DNA from: an uncultured Gemmatimonadota bacterium | GTDB taxonomy: Bacteria > Gemmatimonadota > Gemmatimonadetes > Gemmatimonadales > Gemmatimonadaceae | Direction: 5' to 3' | DNA length: 9,593 bases | Assembly: GCA_946479895.1 (NCBI GenBank) | Contig: CAMLHT010000136.1 | Span: 1-9,593, forward strand | Shown here: positions 1 to 9,593 of the stretch, piece by piece | Numbering within the stretch: the stretch's first letter is position 1 | Layout of the letters: every line of letters starts with the position of its first letter | Position numbers and translations under genes: made by a program | The notes under the pieces: model-generated | The model's input: the letters and a program-made list of their open reading frames with translations, nothing else | The model's database searches: none | Told to the model about the DNA's origin: nothing

Positions 1-1142
1 TCATGAACACCGCGTCGTGCAAGAGCGCGATCACGTTCATCGACGGCGACAAGGGCATCCTGCGCTACCGCGGCTACCCGATCGAGCAGCTCGCGGAGAA
101 CGCGACGTTCCTCGAGGTGGCGTGGCTGCTGCGCAAGGGCGAGCTGCCGAACCGGAAGGAGTACGACCAGTGGGTGCACGACATCACGTTCCACACGTAC
201 GTGCACGAGAACATCAAGAGCTTCCTCACCGGGTTCCGGTACGACGCGCACCCGATGTCGATGCTCTGCTCGGCCGTCGCCGCGCTGTCGTCGTTCTATC
301 CGGAAGCGAAGAACATCTCCGATCCGGAGTCGCGCGAGATCTCGATCATCCGTCTCCTGGCGAAGGTGCCGACGATCGCCGCGTTCTGCTTCCGGCACGC
401 GAAGGGGATGCCCTTCATTTACCCGGACAACGACCTGGGCTACGTCGAGAACTACCTCTCGATGGTGGCCCGCATGTCGGAGCCCCGGTACGAGGCGAAC
501 CCGATCTTCAAGAAGGCGCTCGAGGTGCTCTTCATCCTCCACGCCGACCATGAGCAGAACTGCTCGACGAGCGCCGTGCGCGCCGTCGGCTCGTCGCACG
601 TCGACCCGTTCTCGGCGATCGCGGCCGGCATCGCCGCGCTCTACGGACCGCTGCATGGCGGCGCGAACGAGCAGGTGCTGCACATGATCAAGGAGATCGA
701 GCACCCGAAGAACGTGCCGGCCTTCATCGACAGCGTGAAGGGCGGCAAGGGCGCCCGACTGATGGGCTTCGGCCACCGCGTCTACAAGAGCTACGACCCG
801 CGCGCGAAGATCGTGAAGAAGCTCGCGGACGACGTGTTCAAGGTCGTCGGCGTCGACAAGGACCTCGAGATCGCGCTCAAGCTCGAGGAGGCGGCGCTCA
901 ACGACGAGTACTTCATCTCGCGGAAGCTCTACCCGAACGTCGATTTCTACACGGGCCTGATCTACCGCTCGATGGCGTTCCCGACGGACTACTTCACGGT
1001 GCTGTTCGCCGTGGCGCGGACCGCGGGCTGGCTGGCGCAGTGGGAGGAGATGCTCAGCGACAAGGAGCAGAAGATCGCCCGGCCCCGGCAGGTGTACGTC
1101 GGCTACGGCGAGCGGCCGTACAAGAGCCAGATCTCGCGGTAG
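1..1142 (+). CDS. gltA: Citrate synthase (type II, GltA-like), 5' end outside window
   Basis: Condenses acetyl-CoA and oxaloacetate to citrate, the entry step of the TCA cycle, in the cytoplasm. 379 codons are visible in frame from base 3. The first in-frame ATG (base 3) is almost certainly internal: the visible protein begins at the family motif TASC-x-S-x-ITFIDGD, which lies about 48 residues into E. coli GltA (427 aa), so the N-terminal domain is cut by the window edge. Counting from base 3, all three catalytic residues are present: His218 in GPLHGGANE, His258 in MGFGHRVYKSYDPRA, and Asp314 in YPNVDFYTG. The region HADHEQN-x-STSAVR (180-193) and the C-terminal IARPRQVYVGY are also typical. 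The length to the stop matches the hexameric/type II family. A strong terminator 26 bases past the stop suggests gltA ends its transcription unit. Family identity is near certain; only the start is missing. Confidence 0.96.
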   Translation, partial: MNTASCKSAITFIDGDKGILRYRGYPIEQLAENATFLEVAWLLRKGELPNRKEYDQWVHDITFHTYVHENIKSFLTGFRYDAHPMSMLCSAVAALSSFYPEAKNISDPESREISIIRLLAKVPTIAAFCFRHAKGMPFIYPDNDLGYVENYLSMVARMSEPRYEANPIFKKALEVLFILHADHEQNCSTSAVRAVGSSHVDPFSAIAAGIAALYGPLHGGANEQVLHMIKEIEHPKNVPAFIDSVKGGKGARLMGFGHRVYKSYDPRAKIVKKLADDVFKVVGVDKDLEIALKLEEAALNDEYFISRKLYPNVDFYTGLIYRSMAFPTDYFTVLFAVARTAGWLAQWEEMLSDKEQKIARPRQVYVGYGERPYKSQISR

Positions 1143-1168
1143 GGCGCTCGACTTCAGCGAGGGAAAGG

Positions 1169-1198
1169 GGTCCGCCGGGAAGCCGGCGGACCTTTTCC
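1169..1198 (+). terminator. Rho-independent terminator after gltA
   Basis: A perfect 10-bp GC-rich stem (1169-1178 GGTCCGCCGG with 1183-1192 CCGGCGGACC) closes a 4-base GAAG loop and is followed by TTTT, then C and more T within a few bases. It lies 26 nt after the citrate synthase stop and 34 nt before the yggT-like start, so it should separate the two transcription units. Confidence 0.85.
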
Positions 1199-1225
1199 GT
1201 TTCCGGCTGCGTATTCTTCCTCGCA

Positions 1226-1801
1226 ATGGCCGAGACCTTCCAGGGCATCAATGACATCGTCGTGCGGGTCCTCCTCGGGCTGGCACTGCTGACCGGGGCG
1301 ATCTGCCTCGTGGACTGGGCGATCCGCATGCGGCGCATCAGCCCCTTCAGGCCCGTCGCCCGATTCTTCCGCCGATGGATCGATCCGATGATGAAGCCGC
1401 TAGAGACGGTCATCGTCCGGCGGGGTGGCCAGCCGCAGTCGGCGCCGTTCTTCGCCTTCATGACCGTGATCATCGGCGGGATCGTGATCATCCAGCTGAT
1501 GGCGGTGCTGTTCGGCCTGGCGATGCAGGTCCGGGTCGGCGTGACGAGCCCGACGCGATTCGTGCAGATGCTGCTGTCGTGGGCGCTCAAGCTCGTGACG
1601 TTCGCGCTCATCGTCCGCGTGATCTCGACCTGGCTCCCCGTCTCGCCGTACTCGAAGTGGATCCGGTGGTCGTATGTCGCGACCGAGTGGCTGCTCGCTC
1701 CGCTCCGGCGGTTCATCCCGCCCTTCGGGTCGATCGACATCACGCCGATCGCCGCGTACTTCCTGCTGATCGTCGCCGGGCGGATTCTCGGGCTTCGCTG
1801 A
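1226..1801 (+). CDS. YggT family integral membrane protein
   Basis: 191-residue membrane protein of the YggT family, whose members are linked to cation/osmotic tolerance or envelope function but lack a firm biochemical role. Four hydrophobic helices are visible (about 8-30, 74-98, 118-136, 170-188). The second half has the family signature: ALIVRVISTWLP, then APLRRFIPPFGSIDITPIAAYFLL. The halves look like an internal duplication: SPFRPVARFFRRWIDPMMKPLETVI (39-63) parallels SPYSKWIRWSYVATEWLLAPLRRFI (140-164). I chose ATG 1226. The frame is open upstream into the gltA 3' end, but only this start follows the terminator and gives a normal YggT length. No good SD is seen. A -10-like TATTCT (1212-1217) lies 8 nt before the ATG, so a leaderless message is possible. 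YggT is usually next to YggU/DUF167; here the DUF167 gene is about 1.9 kb downstream. Confidence 0.88.
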   Translation: MAETFQGINDIVVRVLLGLALLTGAICLVDWAIRMRRISPFRPVARFFRRWIDPMMKPLETVIVRRGGQPQSAPFFAFMTVIIGGIVIIQLMAVLFGLAMQVRVGVTSPTRFVQMLLSWALKLVTFALIVRVISTWLPVSPYSKWIRWSYVATEWLLAPLRRFIPPFGSIDITPIAAYFLLIVAGRILGLR

Positions 1802-1898
1802 CTCGACCCCCGCGCCGTTCGCTGCCAATGCCCCGGCGTGCCCACGGGCGCGACTGGCCACAAGCGGACGCTGAACTTCACGGTGGGTCTCCGGTGAG

Positions 1899-1916
1899 CA
1901 AGGTCGGGTTACCTTG
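1899..1916. promoter_or_regulatory. Small dyad in the yggT-decarboxylase gap
   Basis: The 171-nt gap 1802-1972 holds no gene I can support. Its only structure is a 6-bp inverted repeat CAAGGT/ACCTTG with a 6-base loop (CGGGTT). It has no T-run, so it is not an intrinsic terminator. It could be an operator or chance. No convincing -35/-10 pair was found in the gap. Confidence 0.2.
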
Positions 1917-1972
1917 ATCCCGCGCGGCAACGGCCGCCAATCGTCATTCCATGCAGGACGCGCAGGGATACC

Positions 1973-3340
1973 GTGAACACCACCAGCACCACCGGCCTGA
2001 AGCAGCTGCTCGCCGAGACCCTCGAGCGCTCGAATCAGTATCTCGACAGTCTCCCCACCCGTCCGGTCGCGCCCCGCCCCGCTGGCGTCGCCGCGCTTTC
2101 AGCGCTCGACGTCCCCCTCCAGAAGGAGCCGATCGACGCCGCGGCCGTCATTCGTGAGCTGGACGAAGTCGTCACCCCGGCGACCATGGCGATGGCCGGC
2201 CCGCGCTTCTTCGGCTTCGTCATCGGCGGGACGCTGCCGGTCGCGCTGGCGGCGCACTGGCTTTCCAGCGCGTGGGACCAGAACACTGGGCTCTACAACT
2301 CGACGCCGGGCACCTCGCACCTGGAGCAAGTGGCGCTGCGGTGGCTGCTCGACCTCCTCGACCTGCCGCGCGAGAGCGCGGGCGCCTTCGTCACCGGGAC
2401 GACGGTCGCGCACATCACCGCGCTCGCCGCGGCGCGGCACGCCGTCCTCGCGAAAGCGGGATGGGACGTCGAGGCCAACGGGCTGTTCGGCGCTCCGGAA
2501 GTCACCGTCATCACCGGCGCCGAAGCGCACCCGACGCTCTTCAAGGCGCTGGGCGTCATCGGGTTCGGCCGGAAGCGCGTGATCAGGGTGCCCGTGGACG
2601 AGCAGGGTCGCATGCGCGCCGACGCGATGCCGAAGATCTCGGGCCCGACGATCGTCTGCGTGCAGGTGGGCAACGTCAACTCCGGCGCGTGCGACGACGT
2701 CGCAACCATCGGCAAGGCGGCGCGCGCGGCCGGTGCCTGGGTTCACGTGGACGGCGCCTTCGGCCTCTGGGCCCGCGTCGCTCCGAGCCGCGCGCACCTC
2801 GTCCAGGGGATCGAGCATGCGGATTCCTGGGCGACCGATGCCCACAAATGGCTCAACGTCCCCTACGACTCCGGTGTCGCCTTCGTCCGCGACGGCAACG
2901 CGCTCCGGAAGTCGATGGCCGTGAGCGCCGAGTATCTGCCGACGGAGACCGCGAACCGGAACCCGAGTGATTACACCCCCGAGCTTTCCCGCCGGGGACG
3001 CGGGGTGGACATCTGGGCGGCGCTGCGGTCGCTCGGACGCGACGGCGTCAGCGCCATGATCGAGGCCAACTGCCGGCAGGCCCGCCGATTCGGCGAGGGG
3101 CTCTCCAAGGCGGGCTTCACGGTCCTCAACGACGTCGTCCTCAATCAGGTCGTCGTGCAGTTCGGCGATGCCGACCGCACGCGCCAGGTCATTCGCGCGA
3201 TCCAGGAGGACGGGACGATGTGGGCCGGCGAGACCGTCTGGCAGGGCCGGGTCGCCATGCGCATCAGCGTCTCGTGCTGGGCGACGACCGACGCCGACGT
3301 CGAGAAGTCGCTCGCCGCCATCATCCGGCTCGCGTCCTAG
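1973..3340 (+). CDS. PLP-dependent group II (aromatic/glutamate-type) decarboxylase family enzyme
   Basis: 455-residue fold-type I PLP enzyme of the group II decarboxylase family, which removes CO2 from an L-amino acid (aromatic amino acid, glutamate, diaminobutyrate or related). Visible motifs are: GTSHLEQVALRWLLDLLDLP (113-132), the small-domain/active-site region; a phosphate-binding VTGTTVAH (140-147); His186 in AEAHPTLFKA, the usual ring-stacking His; Asp260 in WVHVDGAFG, which contacts the pyridine N; and Lys292 in TDAHKWLNVPYD, the Schiff-base lysine. This lysine motif is typical of the tyrosine/aromatic decarboxylase branch. The start is GTG 1973, preceded by AGGGA (1964-1968); the protein then begins at a normal N terminus. 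Its length is normal. Substrate cannot be read from the sequence, and no transporter or antiporter is nearby to hint at acid resistance or amine export. Its stop shares bases with the stop of the convergent rhodanese gene. Confidence 0.88.
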   Translation: MNTTSTTGLKQLLAETLERSNQYLDSLPTRPVAPRPAGVAALSALDVPLQKEPIDAAAVIRELDEVVTPATMAMAGPRFFGFVIGGTLPVALAAHWLSSAWDQNTGLYNSTPGTSHLEQVALRWLLDLLDLPRESAGAFVTGTTVAHITALAAARHAVLAKAGWDVEANGLFGAPEVTVITGAEAHPTLFKALGVIGFGRKRVIRVPVDEQGRMRADAMPKISGPTIVCVQVGNVNSGACDDVATIGKAARAAGAWVHVDGAFGLWARVAPSRAHLVQGIEHADSWATDAHKWLNVPYDSGVAFVRDGNALRKSMAVSAEYLPTETANRNPSDYTPELSRRGRGVDIWAALRSLGRDGVSAMIEANCRQARRFGEGLSKAGFTVLNDVVLNQVVVQFGDADRTRQVIRAIQEDGTMWAGETVWQGRVAMRISVSCWATTDADVEKSLAAIIRLAS

Positions 3341-3618
3341 GGAGTGAACTCCGCCCGGGCCTGCGCCATCCCTCCGCCGTCGATCACCCGCCGGTACCCG
3401 AGTGACTTGAGCGTGGCCGCGGCGGTCGCGGACCTTGCCCCGCTGGCGCAGTAGACGAGTATACGGCTGTCCGGCCTGATCTCCGCCCGAGCCGGGACCG
3501 CATCGGCGATCCTGTGCACCGGGATGCACTCGGCGCCGCCGAGGTGGCCCAGCCAGTATTCGATATGGGAGCGGACGTCGATGACGAAATCGACCGGCTT
3601 GTTCTGGAACGAGGGCAT
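3337..3618 (-). CDS. Small rhodanese-domain protein (sulfurtransferase-like)
   Basis: A 93-residue single-domain rhodanese, likely cytoplasmic, carrying sulfane sulfur as a cysteine persulfide. Motifs: VDFVIDVRSHIEYWLGHLGGAECIPV (8-33, the conserved DVR...E-x-x-x-GH...G-x-IPV pattern), ILVYC-A-S-GARSATAA with the catalytic Cys in the CASGARS loop, and LKSLGYRRVIDGGG near the C terminus. Start: ATG at 3618, where rhodanese homology begins. The frame continues upstream to a TTG at 3717, but that extension resembles nothing and overlaps the start of the divergent yggU-like gene. No clear SD precedes the ATG, so the start is the weakest part of the call. No sulfur-pathway partner is adjacent. It faces the decarboxylase with no terminator between them and is divergent from the DUF167 gene with a 98-nt shared upstream region. 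Confidence 0.85.
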   Translation of the reverse strand: MPSFQNKPVDFVIDVRSHIEYWLGHLGGAECIPVHRIADAVPARAEIRPDSRILVYCASGARSATAAATLKSLGYRRVIDGGGMAQARAEFTP

Positions 3619-3647
3619 GACGCGAAACGGATCGGGGTACGGGTTAC

Positions 3648-3678
3648 GTGAATGCTCGCTGCCGGCGGCGGTGAATGC
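3648..3678. repeat. Direct repeat GTGAATGC x2 in a divergent promoter region
   Basis: The octamer GTGAATGC occurs at 3648-3655 and 3671-3678, period 23, in the 98-nt region between the divergent rhodanese and DUF167 starts. Position and spacing would suit a pair of regulator half-sites on nearly the same face of the helix. No partner regulator is identified and chance is possible. Confidence 0.3.
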
Positions 3679-3716
3679 ATCGGGGACACACCGGGAAACC
3701 GTCGGGCAGGTTACCA

Positions 3717-4010
3717 ATGCGCATCGAAGCGAGTGACGGCGGTGTCCGGTTCGCGGTGCACGTGCAGCCGCGCGCCTCGCGGACGGAGATCGCCGGCGCG
3801 CACGGCGACGCGGTGAAGATCCGGCTCCAGGCGCCGCCGGTCGACGACGCCGCGAACGGAATGCTCGTCGATTTTCTCAGCGAGCGCTTCGCTGTCGCCC
3901 GGCGCAACGTTAGAATAGTGTCGGGCGCGCACTCACGCGCCAAGGTCGTCGAGGTCGATGGACTCTCCGTCGACGACGCGCGGCGGATTCTGACGTTGCA
4001 GGACAAATGA
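3717..4010 (+). CDS. DUF167 / YggU family protein
   Basis: 97-residue small alpha/beta protein of the DUF167 (YggU) family, function unknown. The family pattern is clear: VRFAVHVQPRASRTEIAGAHGDAVKIRLQAPPVDDAANGMLVDFLSERFAV, then VRIVSGAHSRAKVVEVDGL, corresponding to the usual V-x-P-x-A-S-K/R-x-x-I...L-K-I-x-L-x-A-P-P-V-x-G-x-A-N and G-x-x-S-R-x-K-x-V. Start ATG 3717 has CAGG at 3707-3710 with a 6-nt gap; an in-frame ATG at 3675 would add 14 residues outside the family homology. Its last bases overlap the next start (ATGA at 4007-4010), so translation is probably coupled. YggU commonly sits right after YggT; here a decarboxylase and an inverted rhodanese lie between. Confidence 0.88.
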   Translation: MRIEASDGGVRFAVHVQPRASRTEIAGAHGDAVKIRLQAPPVDDAANGMLVDFLSERFAVARRNVRIVSGAHSRAKVVEVDGLSVDDARRILTLQDK

Positions 4011-4432
4011 CTGACCAGACAGACATGTCTTCCATTCTTCTCGTCGGCACCGACCTCTCCCTCCTCGAGGGCCTCGCGCAGTCCCTCTCGGCGCAGGGAC
4101 ACGCGACGCGGGTCGCGGGGAGCTTCGGCGAGGCGCGCGAGCTCGCGACGACGAAGAAGCCGCTGATCACGGTGATCGAGCGGCAGATGGCGACGGAGTC
4201 GGCGCGCGAGGTGCTCGGCCTGACCCAGGGCTCCGGCGGCGCGCTGGTGCTGTACCGCCCGACCCCGGCGAAGCCCGGCGCGTTGCCCCACGTGCTTCAG
4301 CGGCACGTGCTGGCGGACCTCGCGCTGCCGCTCGAGCGTCACCGGCTGGCCACCCTTGTCCAGCACGTGACCGACCGCGCGACCGCGGTCGGGCGCGGGC
4401 GGGTGAGCGGGGAAACCGAGCTGTCCCGGTGA
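4007..4432 (+). CDS. Degenerate response-regulator receiver-like protein (pseudo-receiver)
   Basis: 141 residues, probably a stand-alone receiver (CheY-like) fold. SSILLVGTDLSLLEGLAQSLSAQGHATRVAGSFGEARELATTKKPLITVIERQ reads as beta1-alpha1-beta2-alpha2-beta3 of a receiver, GGALVLYRP as beta4, and VLADLALPLERHRLATLVQHV as beta5-alpha5. The phosphorylation chemistry looks lost: the acidic pair after beta1 is reduced to GTD (14-16), the expected phospho-acceptor Asp after beta3 aligns with Glu58, and the Lys-Pro before alpha5 is Leu107-Pro108. A Glu at that site can mimic a permanently phosphorylated state. There is no output domain; a charged tail follows residue 125. The gene overlaps its upstream neighbour by ATGA and its downstream one by GTGA, so all three are likely one translationally coupled operon. 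The fold assignment is by pattern only, and a histidine kinase partner is absent here. Confidence 0.6.
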   Translation: MTDQTDMSSILLVGTDLSLLEGLAQSLSAQGHATRVAGSFGEARELATTKKPLITVIERQMATESAREVLGLTQGSGGALVLYRPTPAKPGALPHVLQRHVLADLALPLERHRLATLVQHVTDRATAVGRGRVSGETELSR

Positions 4433-4749
4433 GCGGAGAAGCGATCTCGAAGCTTTTTCGCAACGACAAGTTCCTCCGGATCGCGCGCCCGACGGCGACG
4501 ATCCTCGGCCTCGCCGCCGGCATCTGGCACGGCTCGCACGCGTGGTCGGCGTGGCGGCAGTCGGAGCAGTGGAAGGCCGCGGACCCCGCGCTGTCCGACT
4601 TCTTCTGGTCGGCCTTTCAGACGGAGCTGGGCGTCACCCTCGCCGCGATCTTCGCGGCGTACTTCGCCCGCATCGTCTTCGACGTCAGGAGACTACGGCG
4701 AAATGACAGCGTGGCCGTTCCGAGCGATCGCACTCTTCCCGTACCGTGA
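4429..4749 (+). CDS. Two-helix membrane protein of unknown function
   Basis: 106-residue protein I do not recognise. It has two likely transmembrane helices (about 20-40, ATILGLAAGIWHGSHAW; and about 58-84, FWSAFQTELGVTLAAIFAAYFARIVF) with a short charged loop between them, a basic N-terminal segment before helix 1 (RNDKFLRIAR) and an Arg-rich stretch after helix 2 (DVRRLRR), suggesting both ends are cytoplasmic. The GTG start at 4429 shares bases with the stop of the pseudo-receiver gene (GTGA 4429-4432), the main evidence that the reading frame is used. The last 21 codons overlap, on the opposite strand, the 3' end of the Cys-rich regulator. A role with the pseudo-receiver at the membrane is inference from coupling only. 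Confidence 0.62.
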   Translation: MSGEAISKLFRNDKFLRIARPTATILGLAAGIWHGSHAWSAWRQSEQWKAADPALSDFFWSAFQTELGVTLAAIFAAYFARIVFDVRRLRRNDSVAVPSDRTLPVP

Positions 4750-5317
4750 CGCCCATGACGTCGCGGAGCATCGTCTGAACGGCCAGGCAGACTTCCGCGC
4801 GCTCGTTCACCGCGACTGAAAGCGGGCAGCTGCAGCCGGTGATGCGGAGGTGTCCGCCCTGCCCGCGTTCCACCGTCGTCACGCCGCCGAGCGCATTGAG
4901 CAGCTGAGACGCGCGTTCGGCCCGCGCCGCGAGGTCTCCCGAGGGCGCCGGGGACGACTCGGCAAGCCGATGCCCGACGTCGCGCATGACCGCCCGCAGC
5001 TCCGTCTGGCCCAGCTTGTGGCCGACCGCGGCGAGGAGCGAGGTGAGAAACGGGATGTAGGCCTCCGAGAAGGAGGGCTCGGCGGCCGGGGCGATCTCGT
5101 ACTCGGTCGCGGGCTTGCCCACCCCGCCTCCGCGACGGACGCCCTTCGCCTGGACGATCCCGTCGCGCTCGAGGGTCCCGAGATGCAGGCGGACGGCGTT
5201 GTCCGTCAGCTCGAGGTCGCCGGCCAGCTCCTCGACCGTGCGCGGCCCGCGCCGCAGGAGCGAGACGATCCGCCCGCGGGTGGATTCGAAGAAGCGGTTG
5301 TCGATGCGTCCGGCCAT
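4685..5317 (-). CDS. Winged-helix regulator with C-terminal cysteine cluster (COG2345/SufR-like)
   Basis: 210-residue DNA-binding regulator. Residues about 10-75 form a winged helix: RGRIVSLLRRGPRTVEELAGDLELTDNAVRLHLGTLERDGIV (helix-turn-helix), then a basic wing with GVGKPATEYEI, the G-K/R-P-x-x-x-Y pattern typical of this ArsR-related group. The C-terminal half ends with Cys162, Cys164, Cys177, Cys196 and Cys204 (G-C-S-C-P-L...EVC...EEC...RC-H-F). The C164-x12-C177 spacing and the final C-x-F recall the Fe-S-sensing SufR family; the last spacings may differ, so an Fe-S or other metal/redox ligand is inference. The start is decided by a perfect AGGAGG (5324-5329) six bases before ATG 5317; a longer frame reaching 5431 has no support. 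Its 3' end overlaps the convergent membrane-protein gene by 65 bp. It is divergent from the DUF4142 gene, a possible target besides itself. Confidence 0.85.
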   Translation of the reverse strand: MAGRIDNRFFESTRGRIVSLLRRGPRTVEELAGDLELTDNAVRLHLGTLERDGIVQAKGVRRGGGVGKPATEYEIAPAAEPSFSEAYIPFLTSLLAAVGHKLGQTELRAVMRDVGHRLAESSPAPSGDLAARAERASQLLNALGGVTTVERGQGGHLRITGCSCPLSVAVNERAEVCLAVQTMLRDVMGVTVREECDRSERPRCHFAVVS

Positions 5318-5335
5318 GGGGTTCCTCCTGGACTG

Positions 5336-5364
5336 AGGATAGCAGGAACTGCCCGATCTGGCAA
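5336..5364 (-). promoter_or_regulatory. Sigma-70-like promoter of the Cys-rich regulator
   Basis: On the minus strand, TTGCCA (5359-5364) and TATCCT (5336-5341) are separated by exactly 17 bases: five of six -35 and four of six -10 consensus matches. The predicted transcript start falls near 5329-5331, right at the SD, giving a very short leader of about a dozen bases. That proximity is the main reason for doubt. Confidence 0.5.
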
Positions 5365-5373
5365 TTAGTCCAG
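5358..5373. promoter_or_regulatory. Candidate operator CTGG-N8-CCAG over the regulator's -35 box
   Basis: A small inverted repeat, CTGG (5358-5361) and CCAG (5370-5373), overlaps the -35 box of the regulator promoter. This is where an autorepressor of the SufR/ArsR type would be expected to bind. The arms are only 4 bp, so the call rests mostly on position. Confidence 0.3.
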
Positions 5374-5408
5374 TAAAAACTTGACAAATAGGAGAATCTG
5401 GGTTTCCG

Positions 5409-5419
5409 TGCGTCACGCA
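5409..5419. promoter_or_regulatory. 11-base palindrome upstream of the DUF4142 gene
   Basis: TGCGTCACGCA is a perfect odd palindrome (5-bp arms, central C), 30 nt before the DUF4142 start. A consensus TTGACA (5381-5386) lies upstream on the plus strand, but no acceptable -10 follows at 16-18 bases, so I call only a possible binding site. Confidence 0.25.
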
Positions 5420-5449
5420 GTCGGACATCACCCCAACCCATCATTCCCA

Positions 5450-5983
5450 ATGCGTACCTCGATTCGCGCCGGACTCGTCGCCACCGCCCTCGTCGTTTCC
5501 GCCGCCGCCAGCGCATCCGCGCAGGCGAAGCCCGCCGCCCTCGACGATGCCACCATCGTCGCCATCTTCGATGCCGCCAACACGTGGGACATGGAGACCG
5601 GCGCGCTCGCCGTGAAGAAGGGCTCGACCCAGGCGGTGCGGGACTTCGGCAAGCAGCTCACCGGCGACCATACCACGGTGCGCCAGCAGGGCCGCGACCT
5701 GGCCGCCCATCTCCACGTGACCCCGACGCCGCCGAAGGATTTCGCGATGGCGGCCGACCACCAGGCGGCGGTGAAGAAGCTTTCCGGCCTCGACGGCAAG
5801 GCGTTCGACCGGGCGTTCCTGGAGCACGAGGTCGCGTTTCACAAGGCGGTGCTCGACGCCGTCACGACGACGCTGCTTCCGGCGCTGAAGAACGAGGACG
5901 TGCGAAAGCTGGTGACGACCGTCGCTCCGGCGTTCAACGCGCACATGGTGGCCGCGCAGAACCTGCTGGACAGGATGAAGTAG
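5450..5983 (+). CDS. Exported DUF4142 domain protein
   Basis: 177-residue protein with a clear Sec signal peptide: MRTSIRAG, a hydrophobic core to about residue 20, and an Ala-rich ASASA|QA cleavage site near residue 24. The mature part is a DUF4142 domain (about 32-170), an all-helical, ferritin-like bundle of unknown function found in periplasmic or outer-membrane-associated proteins. Characteristic stretches are AANTWDMETGALAVKKGSTQAVRDFGKQLTGDHTTVRQQ, with the conserved DH at 73-74, and FLEHEVAFHKAVLDA with His131, and FNAHMVAAQNLLD with His165. The last two His-containing helices are the usual conserved positions. I chose ATG 5450 because the signal peptide begins there; no SD precedes it. 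The frame is open upstream to a TTG at 5381 but that extension has no support. It is divergent from the Cys-rich regulator. The molecular role is unknown. Confidence 0.85.
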   Translation: MRTSIRAGLVATALVVSAAASASAQAKPAALDDATIVAIFDAANTWDMETGALAVKKGSTQAVRDFGKQLTGDHTTVRQQGRDLAAHLHVTPTPPKDFAMAADHQAAVKKLSGLDGKAFDRAFLEHEVAFHKAVLDAVTTTLLPALKNEDVRKLVTTVAPAFNAHMVAAQNLLDRMK

Positions 5984-6001
5984 GGTCGGCCGTGGCGGGC
6001 T

Positions 6002-6046
6002 CGCGCGATCGGTGGTACGGTTCGGGATGCAGCCACCGATCGCGCG
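6002..6046. repeat. 14-bp perfect inverted repeat between DUF4142 and hydrolase genes
   Basis: CGCGCGATCGGTGG (6002-6015) is exactly repeated in inverse at 6033-6046, with a 17-base loop. It is followed by a second 5-bp hairpin CGTCC-TCCT-GGACG (6047-6060). Neither has a T-run, so neither is a standard intrinsic terminator. They fill most of the 84-nt gap between the two genes and could fold in RNA, or act as a DNA operator. Confidence 0.65.
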
Positions 6047-6071
6047 CGTCCTCCTGGACGACGGCAGGTGA
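6027..6071 (+). CDS. Possible 14-codon leader ORF
   Basis: ATG 6027 opens a 14-residue frame (MQPPIARVLLDDGR) whose TGA stop (6069-6071) overlaps the GTG start of the next gene as GTGA. Its start codon lies in the loop of the 14-bp hairpin. The same overlap style couples the 4007-4749 genes. The upstream TTCGGG is a poor SD, and a frame this short can arise by chance. Confidence 0.25.
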   Translation: MQPPIARVLLDDGR

Positions 6072-7027
6072 CGGCGCGAGGGGGTCCGGACGGGCTCTCG
6101 CGTCGCGAGTTCCTCGACGCCGGCGCGAGGGCGCTCGTGACGCTTCCCCTGTTGGCGTCACTCGGTCCGCGACAGTCACAGGCGAAATCGCGACTGATCC
6201 TGCTCGGCACCGCCGGCGGCCCGACGCCCAAGCCGAACCGTGCGGCGCCGGCCCAGGTGATCGTCGTCAACGGCGTGTCGTACGTGATCGACTGCGGGAA
6301 CGGCGTCGCTCGCCAGATGATCCTCGCCCGGCTCAGGCTCGGCTCGATCCGCGGCGTCTTCCTGACCCACCATCATTCCGATCACAACGCCGACCTGGGC
6401 AACCTGATCCTGCTCGCCTGGGCCAGCGACCTCACGGCGGCGGTACAGATGTTCGGCCCGCCGCCCCTGTCGGAGATGATGCGGCAGTTCCTGGCCATGA
6501 ACGAGACGGACATCCGCATCCGCACCGCGGACGAGGGCCGCCCGCGTCTCGATCGCATGATCTCGACGCGAGACCTGACGGCGGGCGGGCTCGTCATGCA
6601 GGACGCGAACGTCAGGGTGACCGCGGCCGTCGTGAATCATCCGCCGGTGACACCGTCCTTCGCCTACCGGTTCGACTGCCCCGACCGGTCGATAGTGATT
6701 TCCGGCGATACCGCGCCGTCCGAGGCGCTGATCCGCCTCGCCCGCGGAGCCGACGTTCTCGTGCACGAGGTCATGCATGTCCCGTCGATCGAGACGCTGA
6801 TCGCCGGCGAGACGAACGCGAAGACCCTGCGGGAGCACCTGCTGGCGAGCCATACCACCACGGAGCAGGTTGGCCGCATCGCCACCGAGGCCGGAGTGAA
6901 GACGCTCGTGCTGTCCCACTTCGTCCCCGGCGGGGCGCCCTTCCTGAGCGACGAGGCGTGGCTCGACGCCGTGCGGCCGAACTACTCCGGTCGCATCATC
7001 GTCGGACGGGACCTGCTGGAGATCTGA
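6068..7027 (+). CDS. Tat-exported MBL-fold hydrolase, RNase Z/arylsulfatase-like
   Basis: 319-residue metallo-beta-lactamase-fold enzyme. The N terminus carries a twin-arginine signal, SRREFL (11-16), then a hydrophobic run ARALVTLPLLASLG, so export of the folded, metal-loaded enzyme is likely. The fold begins at LILLGTAGGPTP (43-54). The metal site is complete: THHHSDH gives His101-x-His103-x-Asp105-His106; then His191 (VNHPP), Asp214 (SGDT) and His284 (LSHF). His262 in SHTTTEQVGRIATEAGVK matches the extra conserved His of the RNase Z branch. The export signal argues against tRNA processing and for a periplasmic esterase, sulfatase, phosphodiesterase or lactonase-type activity; the substrate is unknown. 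The start is GTG 6068, the only one that places the Tat motif at a normal distance; SD is weak. It follows the DUF4142 gene and may be co-transcribed through the intervening hairpins. Confidence 0.85.
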   Translation: MTARGGPDGLSRREFLDAGARALVTLPLLASLGPRQSQAKSRLILLGTAGGPTPKPNRAAPAQVIVVNGVSYVIDCGNGVARQMILARLRLGSIRGVFLTHHHSDHNADLGNLILLAWASDLTAAVQMFGPPPLSEMMRQFLAMNETDIRIRTADEGRPRLDRMISTRDLTAGGLVMQDANVRVTAAVVNHPPVTPSFAYRFDCPDRSIVISGDTAPSEALIRLARGADVLVHEVMHVPSIETLIAGETNAKTLREHLLASHTTTEQVGRIATEAGVKTLVLSHFVPGGAPFLSDEAWLDAVRPNYSGRIIVGRDLLEI

Positions 7028-7066
7028 CCGGGCCGCCGGGAAGTAGCCTGATGACGTCCGGGAGCA

Positions 7067-7095
7067 TTGCGGACCGGTCGGTGACCGCCTAAGCT
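7067..7095 (+). promoter_or_regulatory. Weak candidate metH promoter
   Basis: TTGCGG (7067-7072) and TAAGCT (7090-7095) are 17 bases apart, about 20 bases before the riboswitch, where the promoter should be. Each matches only three of six consensus bases. A short dyad CGGTC-GGT-GACCG (7075-7087) lies in the spacer. I see no better candidate in 7028-7117. Confidence 0.25.
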
Positions 7096-7117
7096 CCTTC
7101 CATAGACAATCGAAGTT

Positions 7118-7169
7118 CGTGGTGATTTCCGGCAACTTGCGGCCACGTTAAACAAATCGCTAAAGCGCC
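7118..7169 (+). promoter_or_regulatory. SAM-II riboswitch upstream of metH
   Basis: An H-type pseudoknot aptamer that binds S-adenosylmethionine. Every conserved block of the class is present in order. P1 is CGTGG (7118-7122) with CCACG (7143-7147), plus a T7123-G7142 wobble. The loop begins GATTT (7124-7128). TTGC (7137-7140) can pair with GC-T-AA of the conserved GCTAAA (7159-7164) to form P2a. GGC (7131-7133) pairs with GCC (7167-7169) to form P2b, each three bases from its P2a strand. The A-rich linker TTAAACAAAT follows P1. This matches the SAM-II consensus known best from Alphaproteobacteria (GTGATTT...CTTGC...CCACGTTAAACA...GCTAAA). A terminator starts two bases after the aptamer, and metH follows, so SAM should reduce metH expression by premature termination. 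Confidence 0.92.
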
Positions 7170-7180
7170 CGCCCGGCGCT
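7164..7180 (+). promoter_or_regulatory. Candidate antiterminator hairpin of the metH switch
   Basis: AGCGCC (7164-7169) is the exact complement of GGCGCT (7175-7180), with a 5-base loop. The left arm contains the riboswitch P2b strand (7167-7169) and the last A of GCTAAA. The right arm contains the terminator's left-arm bases 7175-7178. The hairpin therefore cannot coexist with either the SAM-bound pseudoknot or the terminator, as expected for an antiterminator. Confidence 0.6.
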
Positions 7181-7198
7181 CACGCCCCGGGCTTTTTT
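7171..7198 (+). terminator. Intrinsic terminator in the metH leader
   Basis: GCCCGGCG (7171-7178) pairs with CGCC (7183-7186) and GGGC (7189-7192) across a two-base CC bulge, with loop CTCA, followed by six T (7193-7198). It lies directly behind the SAM-II aptamer and 70 nt before the metH start, so it acts as the expression platform of the switch rather than as the end of the upstream gene. Confidence 0.85.
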
Positions 7199-7213
7199 CG
7201 TTTCAGCTCGTCT

Positions 7214-7246
7214 CTCGCGGTGAAGCGCGAGCGGTTCCCTCGCTTC
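7214..7246. repeat. Two overlapping inverted repeats in the metH 5' leader
   Basis: CTCGCG-GTGAAG-CGCGAG (7214-7231) is a 6-bp hairpin. The overlapping GAAGCG(C)GAG (7222-7231) instead pairs with CTCGCTTC (7239-7246), with one bulged base; the two folds exclude each other. The stretch then runs into CGCCCGGGATGACC, just before the metH start. It resembles a short dispersed palindromic element inserted in the leader, but a second copy is not visible in this window. Confidence 0.35.
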
Positions 7247-7268
7247 GCCCGGGATGACCCAGGACCCA

Positions 7269-9593
7269 ATGACCTACAAGGCACCAGACCATCCGTATCT
7301 CCGCGCGCTCGACGATCACGTCCTCGTGTTCGACGGCGCGATGGGCACCAATATCCAGCTCCACCACCCCACGCCGGAGGACTTCGGCGGCAAGGAGCTC
7401 GAGGGCTGCAACGACCACCTCGTGCTGACGCGGCCCGACATCATCCAGTCGATCCACGAGAGCTTCCTCGCCGTCGGCTGCGACGTCGTCGAGACCTGCA
7501 CGTTCCAGTCGACGCCACACCGGCTGCGCGAGTGGGGGATCGAGGAAAAGACGCGCGACCTCAACGTCGCGGCGGCGAGGCTGGCGCGGGCGGCCTGCGA
7601 GAAATACTCGACGCCGGAGAAGCCGCGCTTCGTGGCGGGGTCCATCGGCCCGACGGGCATGCTGCTCTCGTCGTCCGACCCCGCCCTGTCGGCGACCACG
7701 TTCGCCGAGCTGGAGGAGAACTACTACATCCAGGCGAAGTACCTGGTCGAGGGCGGCGTGGACGTTCTGCTCGTCGAGACGGCGCAGGACATCCTCGAGG
7801 TCAAGGCGGCGGTCGCCGGCTTCGAGCGCCTCTTCCGCGAGATCGGCCGCCGGATCCCGATCCAGGCGCAGGTCACCCTCGACACGAGCGGCCGTATGCT
7901 GCTCGGCACCGACATCGCGAGCTCGCTGACCACGCTCGAGGCGCTGCCGGTGGACGTCATCGGGCTGAACTGCTCGACGGGCCCGGAGCACATGCGCGAG
8001 CCGATCCGCTACCTGACGGCGAACGCGTCGCGACCGATCTCCTGCATCCCGAACGCGGGCCTGCCGCTCAACACGGGCACCGGCGACGCAGTCTATCCGC
8101 TCGAGCCGAAGCCGATGGCCGAAATGCTGGCCGAGATGGTGAAGGTGAACGGCGTGCGGATCGTCGGCGGCTGCTGCGGCACCCGGCCGGAGCACCTCAG
8201 GGAAATCGCCGCCGCGGTCTCGAAGGTCGACTTCACGCCCCCGCATCACGAGCCCGTTCCCCGCGTCTCCTCGGCGATGCGCGCGGTGGACCTGGACCAG
8301 GATCCGAAGCCGCTCCTCATCGGCGAGCGCGTGAACGCCCAGGGCTCGCGGAAGGTGAAGCGCCTCCTGCTGGCCGAGGACTACGAGGGCATCGTCGAGG
8401 TCGCGCGGGAGCAGGCCGAGTCCGGCGCGCACGTGCTGGACGTCTGCGTGGCCGTGACGGAGCGGTCGGATGAAGCCGACCAGATGGCGAAGCTGGTGAA
8501 GCTGCTGTCGATGTCGGTGGAATCGCCGATCATGATCGACTCGACCGAGGCGAAGGTGATCGAGAAGGCGCTCGAGGCGATCCCCGGCCGCGCGATCATC
8601 AACTCCATCAACATGGAGAACGGCCGCGAGCGCATCGACGCCATCGTCCCGCTGGCGAAGAAGCACGGCGCGGCGCTCGTCGCGCTCACCATCGACCCGG
8701 TGGGCATGGCCAAGACCCGCGAGCGGAAGCTCGAGGTCGCGAAGAAGATCTACGACATCGTCGTCGGTGAGTACGGCATGGAGCCGGCCGACCTGATCTA
8801 CGACGACCTGACCTTCACCCTGGCGACCGGCGACGCGGAGTGGATCGACTCGGCCATCGAGACAATCGAGGGCATCCGGCTGATCAAGAGGGAGCTCCCG
8901 GGCGTCTACACATCACTCGGCGTCTCCAACGTCTCGTTCGGCCTGTCGCCCGAGGCGCGCGCCGTCCTGAATTCCGTCTTCCTGCATCACTGCGTGGAAG
9001 CGGGGCTCGACATGGCGATCGTCAACCCCGCGCACATCAAGCCGTACGCGGAAATCTCGGACGAGGAGCGGGCGCTGGCGGACGACCTGGTCTTCAACAA
9101 GAGGGCCGACGCACTCCAGCGGTTCATCGAGGCATTCCAGGGAAAAGCGGGACGCGCGGATCAGACAGATCAGGCGGATCCCACGGATCAGATGGACCCG
9201 AGGGCGAAGGTCCACTGGATGATCGTGCACCGGAAGAAGGACGGGATCGAAGCCGCGCTCGACGCGGCCGGCGTGCGCGAGAATCCCGTGCAGGTGCTGA
9301 ACGACGTGCTGCTGCCGGCGATGAAGGAGGTCGGCGACAAGTTCGGCGCCGGTGAGCTCATCCTGCCGTTCGTCCTCCAGTCGGCCGAAGCGATGAAGAA
9401 GGCCGTGAAGCACCTCGAGCAGTTTCTCGACCGGAAGGAAGGCTACACCAAGGGCAAGGTGGTGCTGGCGACCGTGTACGGCGACGTGCACGACATCGGG
9501 AAGTCCCTGGTCAACACCATCCTCTCCAACAACGGCTACACGGTCTACGACCTGGGCAAGCAGGTGCCGGTGAACACGATCATCGAGAAGGCG
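7269..9593 (+). CDS. metH: Cobalamin-dependent methionine synthase, 3' end outside window
   Basis: Transfers a methyl group from 5-methyltetrahydrofolate through cob(I)alamin to homocysteine, making methionine, the precursor of SAM. 775 codons are visible without a stop (full-length MetH is about 1200). Domains: homocysteine-binding barrel (about 8-325), with zinc ligands Cys235 (GLNCSTGP) and Cys302-Cys303 (GGCCGT); folate-binding barrel (about 345-625, starting PLLIGERVN, with IDSTE and INSIN motifs); four-helix cap (about 648-725); and the start of the B12 domain with Asp739-Val-His741-Asp-Ile-Gly744, His741 being the cobalt ligand. The reactivation domain would lie beyond the window. Start ATG 7269 has AGGA at 7261-7264; an in-frame ATG at 7254 would add five residues (MTQDP) but lacks an SD. 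A tandem-repeat linker lies between the folate and cap domains. Regulation: SAM-II riboswitch plus terminator in the leader; no cobalamin riboswitch seen. Confidence 0.97.
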   Translation, partial: MTYKAPDHPYLRALDDHVLVFDGAMGTNIQLHHPTPEDFGGKELEGCNDHLVLTRPDIIQSIHESFLAVGCDVVETCTFQSTPHRLREWGIEEKTRDLNVAAARLARAACEKYSTPEKPRFVAGSIGPTGMLLSSSDPALSATTFAELEENYYIQAKYLVEGGVDVLLVETAQDILEVKAAVAGFERLFREIGRRIPIQAQVTLDTSGRMLLGTDIASSLTTLEALPVDVIGLNCSTGPEHMREPIRYLTANASRPISCIPNAGLPLNTGTGDAVYPLEPKPMAEMLAEMVKVNGVRIVGGCCGTRPEHLREIAAAVSKVDFTPPHHEPVPRVSSAMRAVDLDQDPKPLLIGERVNAQGSRKVKRLLLAEDYEGIVEVAREQAESGAHVLDVCVAVTERSDEADQMAKLVKLLSMSVESPIMIDSTEAKVIEKALEAIPGRAIINSINMENGRERIDAIVPLAKKHGAALVALTIDPVGMAKTRERKLEVAKKIYDIVVGEYGMEPADLIYDDLTFTLATGDAEWIDSAIETIEGIRLIKRELPGVYTSLGVSNVSFGLSPEARAVLNSVFLHHCVEAGLDMAIVNPAHIKPYAEISDEERALADDLVFNKRADALQRFIEAFQGKAGRADQTDQADPTDQMDPRAKVHWMIVHRKKDGIEAALDAAGVRENPVQVLNDVLLPAMKEVGDKFGAGELILPFVLQSAEAMKKAVKHLEQFLDRKEGYTKGKVVLATVYGDVHDIGKSLVNTILSNNGYTVYDLGKQVPVNTIIEKA
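9158..9202 (+). repeat. Degenerate 9-bp tandem repeat inside metH
   Basis: Five consecutive 9-base units: GGATCAGAC, AGATCAGGC, GGATCCCAC, GGATCAGAT and the diverged GGACCCGAG. The period is a multiple of three, so the frame is kept and the protein reads as three-residue units D-Q/P-x (DQT DQA DPT DQM DPR, residues 631-645). It lies exactly in the linker between the folate barrel and the B12 cap, where length changes are tolerated. Confidence 0.8.

Follow-up and report, generated by a model that had tools for sequence, protein, structure and literature searches.

A SAM-II riboswitch adjoining an intrinsic terminator in the metH leader of a Gemmatimonadota bacterium

Introduction

SAM-II riboswitches have been described in alphaproteobacteria, with a few cases in other Proteobacteria and in Bacteroides, and many SAM-II leaders have putative terminators between the P2 pseudoknot and the gene (PMC1273637). 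SAM-II with a terminator is a known arrangement (PMC1273637, PMC2258182). Within the Proteobacteria, the part of Leyn et al. that deals with this class, there named SAM_alpha, limits it to the Rhizobiales and Rhodobacterales; its core target there is metY, and hom, metA, metX, metC, and metW are other targets (PMC4239095). Reviews present the mode of control in two ways: the SAM-II section of a 2024 review groups the class with switches that directly occlude the ribosome-binding site (PMC10907184), and the corresponding section of a 2022 review mentions SAM-II terminators in tandem arrangements (PMC9481103). Our search of the open-licence literature returned no paper on SAM-II in Gemmatimonadetes or Gemmatimonas; the papers that it returned on riboswitches and Gemmatimonadota do not name SAM-II in their titles or the opening lines of their abstracts.

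Here, we describe a SAM-II riboswitch upstream of metH, the gene for B12-dependent methionine synthase, in a member of the Gemmatimonadota. We consider it likely that metH is under transcriptional control by this riboswitch, an OFF switch working through a strand swap between the aptamer and a terminator. Throughout, “the window” refers to the whole 9,593-nucleotide stretch of DNA analyzed; its features are listed in Table 1.

Table 1. Features of the metH leader and gene, in window coordinates
Feature	Position	Strand	Details	Basis
Promoter-like pair	7067-7072, 7090-7095	+	TTGCGG, 17 bp, TAAGCT	Weak relative to consensus
P1 stem	7118-7123 with 7142-7147	+	5 Watson-Crick pairs and 1 G-U	cmscan structure line; 99.7% of cells paired in 102 aptamers
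GAUUU block	7124-7128	+	Conserved SAM-II loop element	RF00521 alignment; invariant in the 26-row seed alignment
P2 pseudoknot	7131-7133/7167-7169 and 7137-7139/7153-7155	+	GGC/GCC and UUG/CAA	Pair counts
GCUAAA block	7159-7164	+	Conserved 3' block of the SAM-II aptamer	RF00521 alignment; invariant in the 26-row seed alignment
Proposed antiterminator (capture hairpin)	7164-7169 with 7175-7180	+	AGCGCC with GGCGCU, loop 5	-9.5 kcal/mol, z -2.2
Intrinsic terminator	7171-7192; U6 7193-7198	+	GCCCGG (7171-7176)/CCGGGC (7187-7192), inner CG/CG	Folding
metH, B12-dependent methionine synthase	7254-9593, cut by the window end	+		Pfam; 82% identity to locus L001

The metH leader contains a SAM-II aptamer

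At the gathering threshold, cmscan finds a single Rfam match in the window: RF00521 (SAM_alpha) at 7109-7184 on the forward strand, scoring 46.1 bits against a cut-off of 36. The E value is 5e-8 over the whole window and 1.6e-9 when 7000-7300 is searched alone. The related long-loop form of SAM-II, RF01726, has no match in 7000-7300 at E≤0.1, which rules it out as the class of this leader. A preliminary description, made from the sequence, had called the element SAM-II, with conserved blocks in order and P1 and P2 pairings, and had proposed an Infernal check against Rfam; the score and the pairings bear out the call.

We assigned the pseudoknot strands from the RF00521 alignment and take them to be those named P2. 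Across 102 related aptamers, columns 25-26 and 79-80 of P2 pair in 96.5%. The outermost P2 pair is G-C, A-U, or G-U among relatives and is formed in just 52.5%, in columns that are partly mis-registered. Pair 29-67 is formed in 15 of 86 cells, and the corresponding window bases, C7136 and A7156, do not pair. With little variation in most columns, the overall paired percentage is not raised relative to shuffles (87.9 vs 87.6). The covariation score of 0.086 is higher than that of shuffles (0.074), 2 of 500 of which reached it, and higher than that of slid versions of the alignment (0.002-0.029). In the window, an above-threshold score coincides with P1 and a P2 pseudoknot around GAUUU and GCUAAA, in the leader of a methionine gene. 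Judged by these features, the element is a genuine SAM-II riboswitch, a known class, and it very probably senses SAM and ends transcription early.

An intrinsic terminator lies between the aptamer and metH

The window has an intrinsic terminator 3' of the aptamer, the arrangement that marks a transcription-terminating riboswitch. The terminator hairpin begins one base past the last P2 base; the hairpin and its six Ts had been recognized in the preliminary description, with a spacing of two bases that we correct here. The hairpin has a predicted energy of -14.4 kcal/mol, and with its tail the minimum free energy is -15.6 kcal/mol (z -3.0 vs dinucleotide shuffles). A generic promoter/terminator scan of the window found neither element; we think that it missed the terminator because it allows loops of at most 8, fewer than this hairpin has. 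The clade to which the window belongs comprises 73 leaders, of which 66 are distinct; parsing gave distinct platforms for 63, counting that of the window. Of these 63, 61 have a hairpin resembling a terminator and followed by a U-run, as compared to 7.9% of single-base shuffles.

The pattern TTG-N16-19-TANNNT occurs upstream of P1 in 36 of the 66 distinct clade leaders vs 1.8% of single-base shuffles. This pattern is in line with a promoter just upstream of the aptamer, and we infer a transcription start near 7102.

The gene downstream is metH, as the preliminary description had supposed, with the S-methyl_trans (PF02574), Pterin_bind (PF00809), B12-binding_2 (PF02607), and B12-binding (PF02310) domains. 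Its start is probably the ATG at 7269 rather than that at 7254, because homologues begin with MT... at this point and AGGA lies four bases upstream of it. An inverted repeat occupies 7205-7262, between the terminator and metH, and includes the ATG at 7254 (-25.4 kcal/mol, z -1.6). We considered its 3' part, 7238-7259, as a dispersed repeat and rejected this, having found no exact copy in 242 loci and no second copy in the window.

Upstream of the leader, positions 1-7027 encode, by Pfam, citrate synthase, a PLP decarboxylase, a rhodanese (reverse strand), a DUF167 protein, an ArsR-type HTH protein (reverse strand), a DUF4142 protein, and a metallo-beta-lactamase-fold protein; two ORFs, at 4007-4432 and 4429-4749, match no Pfam family. 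When the fetched loci, which mostly extend 1.5-3 kb or less from the leader, were searched by tblastn, the flanking genes for the metallo-beta-lactamase-fold, DUF4142, HTH, and decarboxylase proteins gave no match at E≤1e-10.

The host belongs to the Gemmatimonadota

Two metH loci were returned on genome contigs. The nearer, at 82% identity, is from Gemmatimonadetes bacterium isolate RYN_362 (locus L001, genome G001); the second, at 61%, is from Thermosporothrix hazakensis (L002), whose phylum we take to be Chloroflexota. Citrate synthase is encoded at the opposite end of the window. Of 10 genomes tested from the phylum of G001, 7 have it at 86-88% identity and 3 have no match; in the two genomes of the phylum of L002, identity is at most 38%. 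The two genes lie on one contig and in the same direction in G001, G313, and G178, ~4.3-4.4 kb apart, as compared to 6.1 kb in the window; in G025 and G072 the two are likewise on one contig, in divergent orientation. On their sequences, metH and citrate synthase place the contig in the phylum of the Gemmatimonadetes metagenome-assembled genome G001. The earlier suggestion that the host lies outside the Proteobacteria is therefore upheld.

SAM-II is widespread in the phylum

Of 395 genomes sampled from the Gemmatimonadota, 221 have an RF00521 match over the cut-off and 262 have one at E≤0.001. The Rfam model misses some members; for example, locus L216 scores 26.8 bits with that model and 63.2 with a model built from this analysis. 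The count of 221 is therefore a lower bound. None of 14 named control genomes has a match. Among 301 genomes of the phylum of L002, a single one does (G456:C30:23739-23817, locus L242; 71.2 bits), which may reflect transfer or assembly contamination. RF01726 is over its cut-off in 6 of the 395 genomes and at E≤0.001 in 38, some at sites that RF00521 also matches.

SAM-I (RF00162, 65 genomes) and SAM-II (RF00521, 262 genomes) occur together in 20 of the 395 genomes at E≤0.001, as compared to 43 expected by chance, a count that may include contaminated assemblies. A 2007 survey, in its account of the two classes, reported no species with both (PMC2258182).

To see the leader in relatives, upstream DNA was fetched for 88 metH relatives among the matches listed, leaving out G381 and C-terminal fragments. 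All 59 fetched relatives at 74-84% identity have the aptamer (that of L039 is truncated where its contig stops). Six SAM-II loci outside the 59 are further members of this clade (L003, L128, L141, L150, L167, and L172). Weak SAM-II matches precede 9 of 20 relatives at 61-68% identity and 1 of 9 at 62-66% over part of the protein. In the nearest genome (L001), too, metH is preceded by both aptamer and terminator. The preliminary description had offered two readings of a host outside the Proteobacteria, an extended range or transfer of the leader. The 221 genomes support the former; with the leader present on 59 of 59 fetched metH relatives at 74-84% identity as well, a recent transfer is unlikely, and we reject it.

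A relaxed Rfam search covered 20 loci (18 of the first weak set, plus L216 and L241). RF01726 is over its cut-off in four (L208, L213, L214, and L241) and under it in seven, ahead of metH genes at 61-68% identity to that of the window. RF01726 is thus found besides RF00521, so the metH leaders of one phylum carry both SAM-II forms.

Genes downstream of SAM-II

The best-scoring 151 SAM-II matches of the phylum were fetched and, with the window, sorted by single-linkage clustering of the longest downstream ORF. Among these best matches, metH-type genes are the commonest target: 90 of the 152 loci precede genes of homocysteine-methyltransferase type, encoding MetH or a bifunctional enzyme. In at least three of the 90 (L161, L175, and L183), an apparent metF-type start comes first and the methyltransferase second, as judged by eye. 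Other targets are metF-like (14), thrC-like (9), metY-like (7), metX-like (6), panB-like (5), and hom-like (4), and the remaining 17 loci fall in small or unassigned clusters. With NCBIfam, one member each of the bifunctional enzyme, metF, thrC, metY, and panB clusters scores over the cut-off of a model. The members checked for metX, for hom, and for the second metH-type group (a cut metH) are under cut-off, yet those models are their best matches.

Some of the targets, namely thrC, panB, and ATP-grasp, lie outside methionine synthesis in the strict sense. SAM-II with a terminator precedes panB-like genes, an unusual target, in L025, L028, L005, L032, and L067, and the L025 gene is over the NCBIfam panB cut-offs. 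PanB uses methylene-THF. In L170, SAM-II is ahead of a gene for an ATP-grasp protein (RimK-like, under the models' cut-offs). L005 has two divergent SAM-II copies, one directed toward panB and the other toward a gene that, by eye, looks like that of L170.

Possible coupling between the aptamer and the terminator

The segment GGCGCU overlaps the 5' arm of the terminator and could also pair with the 3' strand of the aptamer, forming the capture hairpin of Table 1. The five core pairs of this hairpin can form in 54 of the 63 distinct clade leaders (window included) vs 19.8% of single-base shuffles, with loops limited to 3-17, a limit set after a first register search had settled on the GGC-UUU end of the terminator. 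Over the 63 leaders, the inner end pair is C-G in 37, G-C in 7, U-A in 4, and U-G in 9, with 6 not paired; the outer end pair is G-C in 53, C-G in 3, and G-U in 7. In a 102-column MetH tree, exchanges between G-C and C-G are one supported event each, and C/U changes in the inner pair mostly occur without a change of partner; the events are too few for a sign test to reach 0.05. By these counts, compensatory changes exist, in few independent events.

The second metH-type group differs from the clade of the window. The five-pair hairpin is found in 14 of its 66 platforms (8.6% of shuffles), and a complement of GCUAAA itself in 31 of 66 (7.2% of shuffles), as compared to 1 of 63 in the clade of the window. 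An unrestricted duplex test reaches p≤0.05 in 19 of 67 leaders of the second group and 5 of 62 leaders of other genes; in the clade of the window it is not significant, with a median p of 0.27 and 8 of 63 leaders at p≤0.05. When platforms are swapped in from other groups, they score as well as the real ones in the clade of the window (15.41 vs 15.48); in this comparison, the metY group does not exceed its shuffles.

Folding suggests an order of events. In step-wise folding, the capture hairpin forms at 7180, before the 3' arm of the terminator has been made, and the terminator forms only at 7192. The terminator fold is the more stable of the two when P1 is held (-25.7 vs -21.3 for the capture fold), although 7109-7198 folded without restriction (-26.7) has the capture hairpin and lacks P1. 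Such a switch would need to be kinetic.

A proposed strand-swap mechanism and its alternatives

The aptamer, the terminator, the target gene, the host phylum, and the conservation of the leader are shown by the results above; we infer SAM binding, the strand swap, and the direction of the swap from these patterns. Without SAM, GGCGCU (7175-7180) would capture the aptamer 3' strand at 7164-7169; this would occupy part of the terminator 5' arm, so that polymerase would read into metH. With SAM, the same strand would be held in the P2 pseudoknot, leaving GGCGCU free; the terminator would fold, and transcription would stop at the U6 tract. A kinetic switch is favored, in which SAM bound in time would keep the strand in P2 and let the terminator form.

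The strongest alternative, which we regard as unlikely though worth weighing, is that the aptamer binds SAM and the terminator is not coupled to it through the proposed hairpin. The terminator could then be a fixed attenuator, perhaps yielding a short riboswitch-containing sRNA, or it could be coupled by another pairing. There is a precedent in the metA leader of Sinorhizobium meliloti, for which the pertinent part of PMC9373788 describes a terminator downstream of SAM-II with no predicted effect of SAM. Moreover, the terminator is the more stable hairpin in the window, the unrestricted duplex test is not significant in this clade, and nine of the 63 leaders lack the five-pair hairpin, including that of the nearest genome (L003). 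Against this alternative, a hairpin that pits the aptamer strand against the terminator is possible in the other 54 leaders, the terminator begins a single base after the aptamer, and the metZ leader of S. meliloti has a predicted SAM-dependent terminator, as given in the same part of that study (PMC9373788). On balance, we prefer the strand swap.

Control of translation, with SAM binding hiding the metH ribosome-binding site, is highly improbable in the window, where the likely metH start lies ~100 bases past the aptamer with the terminator between them. The phylum does include a layout suited to direct occlusion: in L010, L011, L014, L017, L019, and L070, the 3' end of the aptamer directly abuts the AGGATG or AGAATG of a homocysteine-methyltransferase-type gene. 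From its arrangement, this appears to be a translational type, so that the phylum would have both this and the terminator type. Just as improbable is a SAM-II fold with a changed ligand (e.g., S-adenosylhomocysteine) or ON switching, given conserved SAM-II blocks that are unaltered in the window and the many SAM-II targets of the phylum that are methionine-synthesis genes.

Comparison with known SAM-II systems

The kind of riboswitch is itself known; the interest lies in its phylum-wide use, in the predominance of metH-type genes among the targets of the best matches, in two SAM-II forms before metH, and in a testable strand-swap platform. A large, mostly uncultured phylum, with the class in over half of its sampled genomes, joins the hosts of a riboswitch described mainly from alphaproteobacteria. 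For the little-tested terminator-type mechanism, the phylum provides a comparative set of 63 distinct platforms from one metH clade and 66 from a second metH-type group. That both RF00521 and RF01726 are found ahead of metH in one phylum bears on the kinship of the SAM-II families.

We tentatively suggest a broader picture, held with less confidence than the mechanism for the window. Methionine synthesis may have long been controlled by SAM-II throughout the Gemmatimonadota, mainly at the methyl-transfer step. Its platform may be a strand swap rather than direct occlusion, with the terminator region capturing the 3' strand of the aptamer: the last P2 bases in the clade of the window, and GCUAAA itself in many leaders of the second metH-type group. 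Since metH leaders of this phylum carry both forms, RF00521 and RF01726 might be end points of one lineage.

Among described systems, the closest is the SAM_alpha/metA motif (RF00521), with which the window shares the conserved blocks, P1, the P2 pseudoknot, size, a terminator after P2, and a target in the methionine pathway, as set out in the description of that motif (PMC1273637). The window differs in its host, a member of the Gemmatimonadota, and the commonest target among the best 151 matches of the phylum is metH-type, as compared to the proteobacterial metY core in the SAM_alpha account of Leyn et al. (PMC4239095). The long-loop form, RF01726, has the same GAUUU and GCUAAA blocks and is found ahead of metH genes of the same phylum, whereas the leader in the window matches RF00521 instead. 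Lastly, the SAM-II leader of S. meliloti metZ resembles the window in having a predicted SAM-dependent terminator as its platform, and differs in its alphaproteobacterial host and in its target, metZ, according to the metZ portion of PMC9373788.
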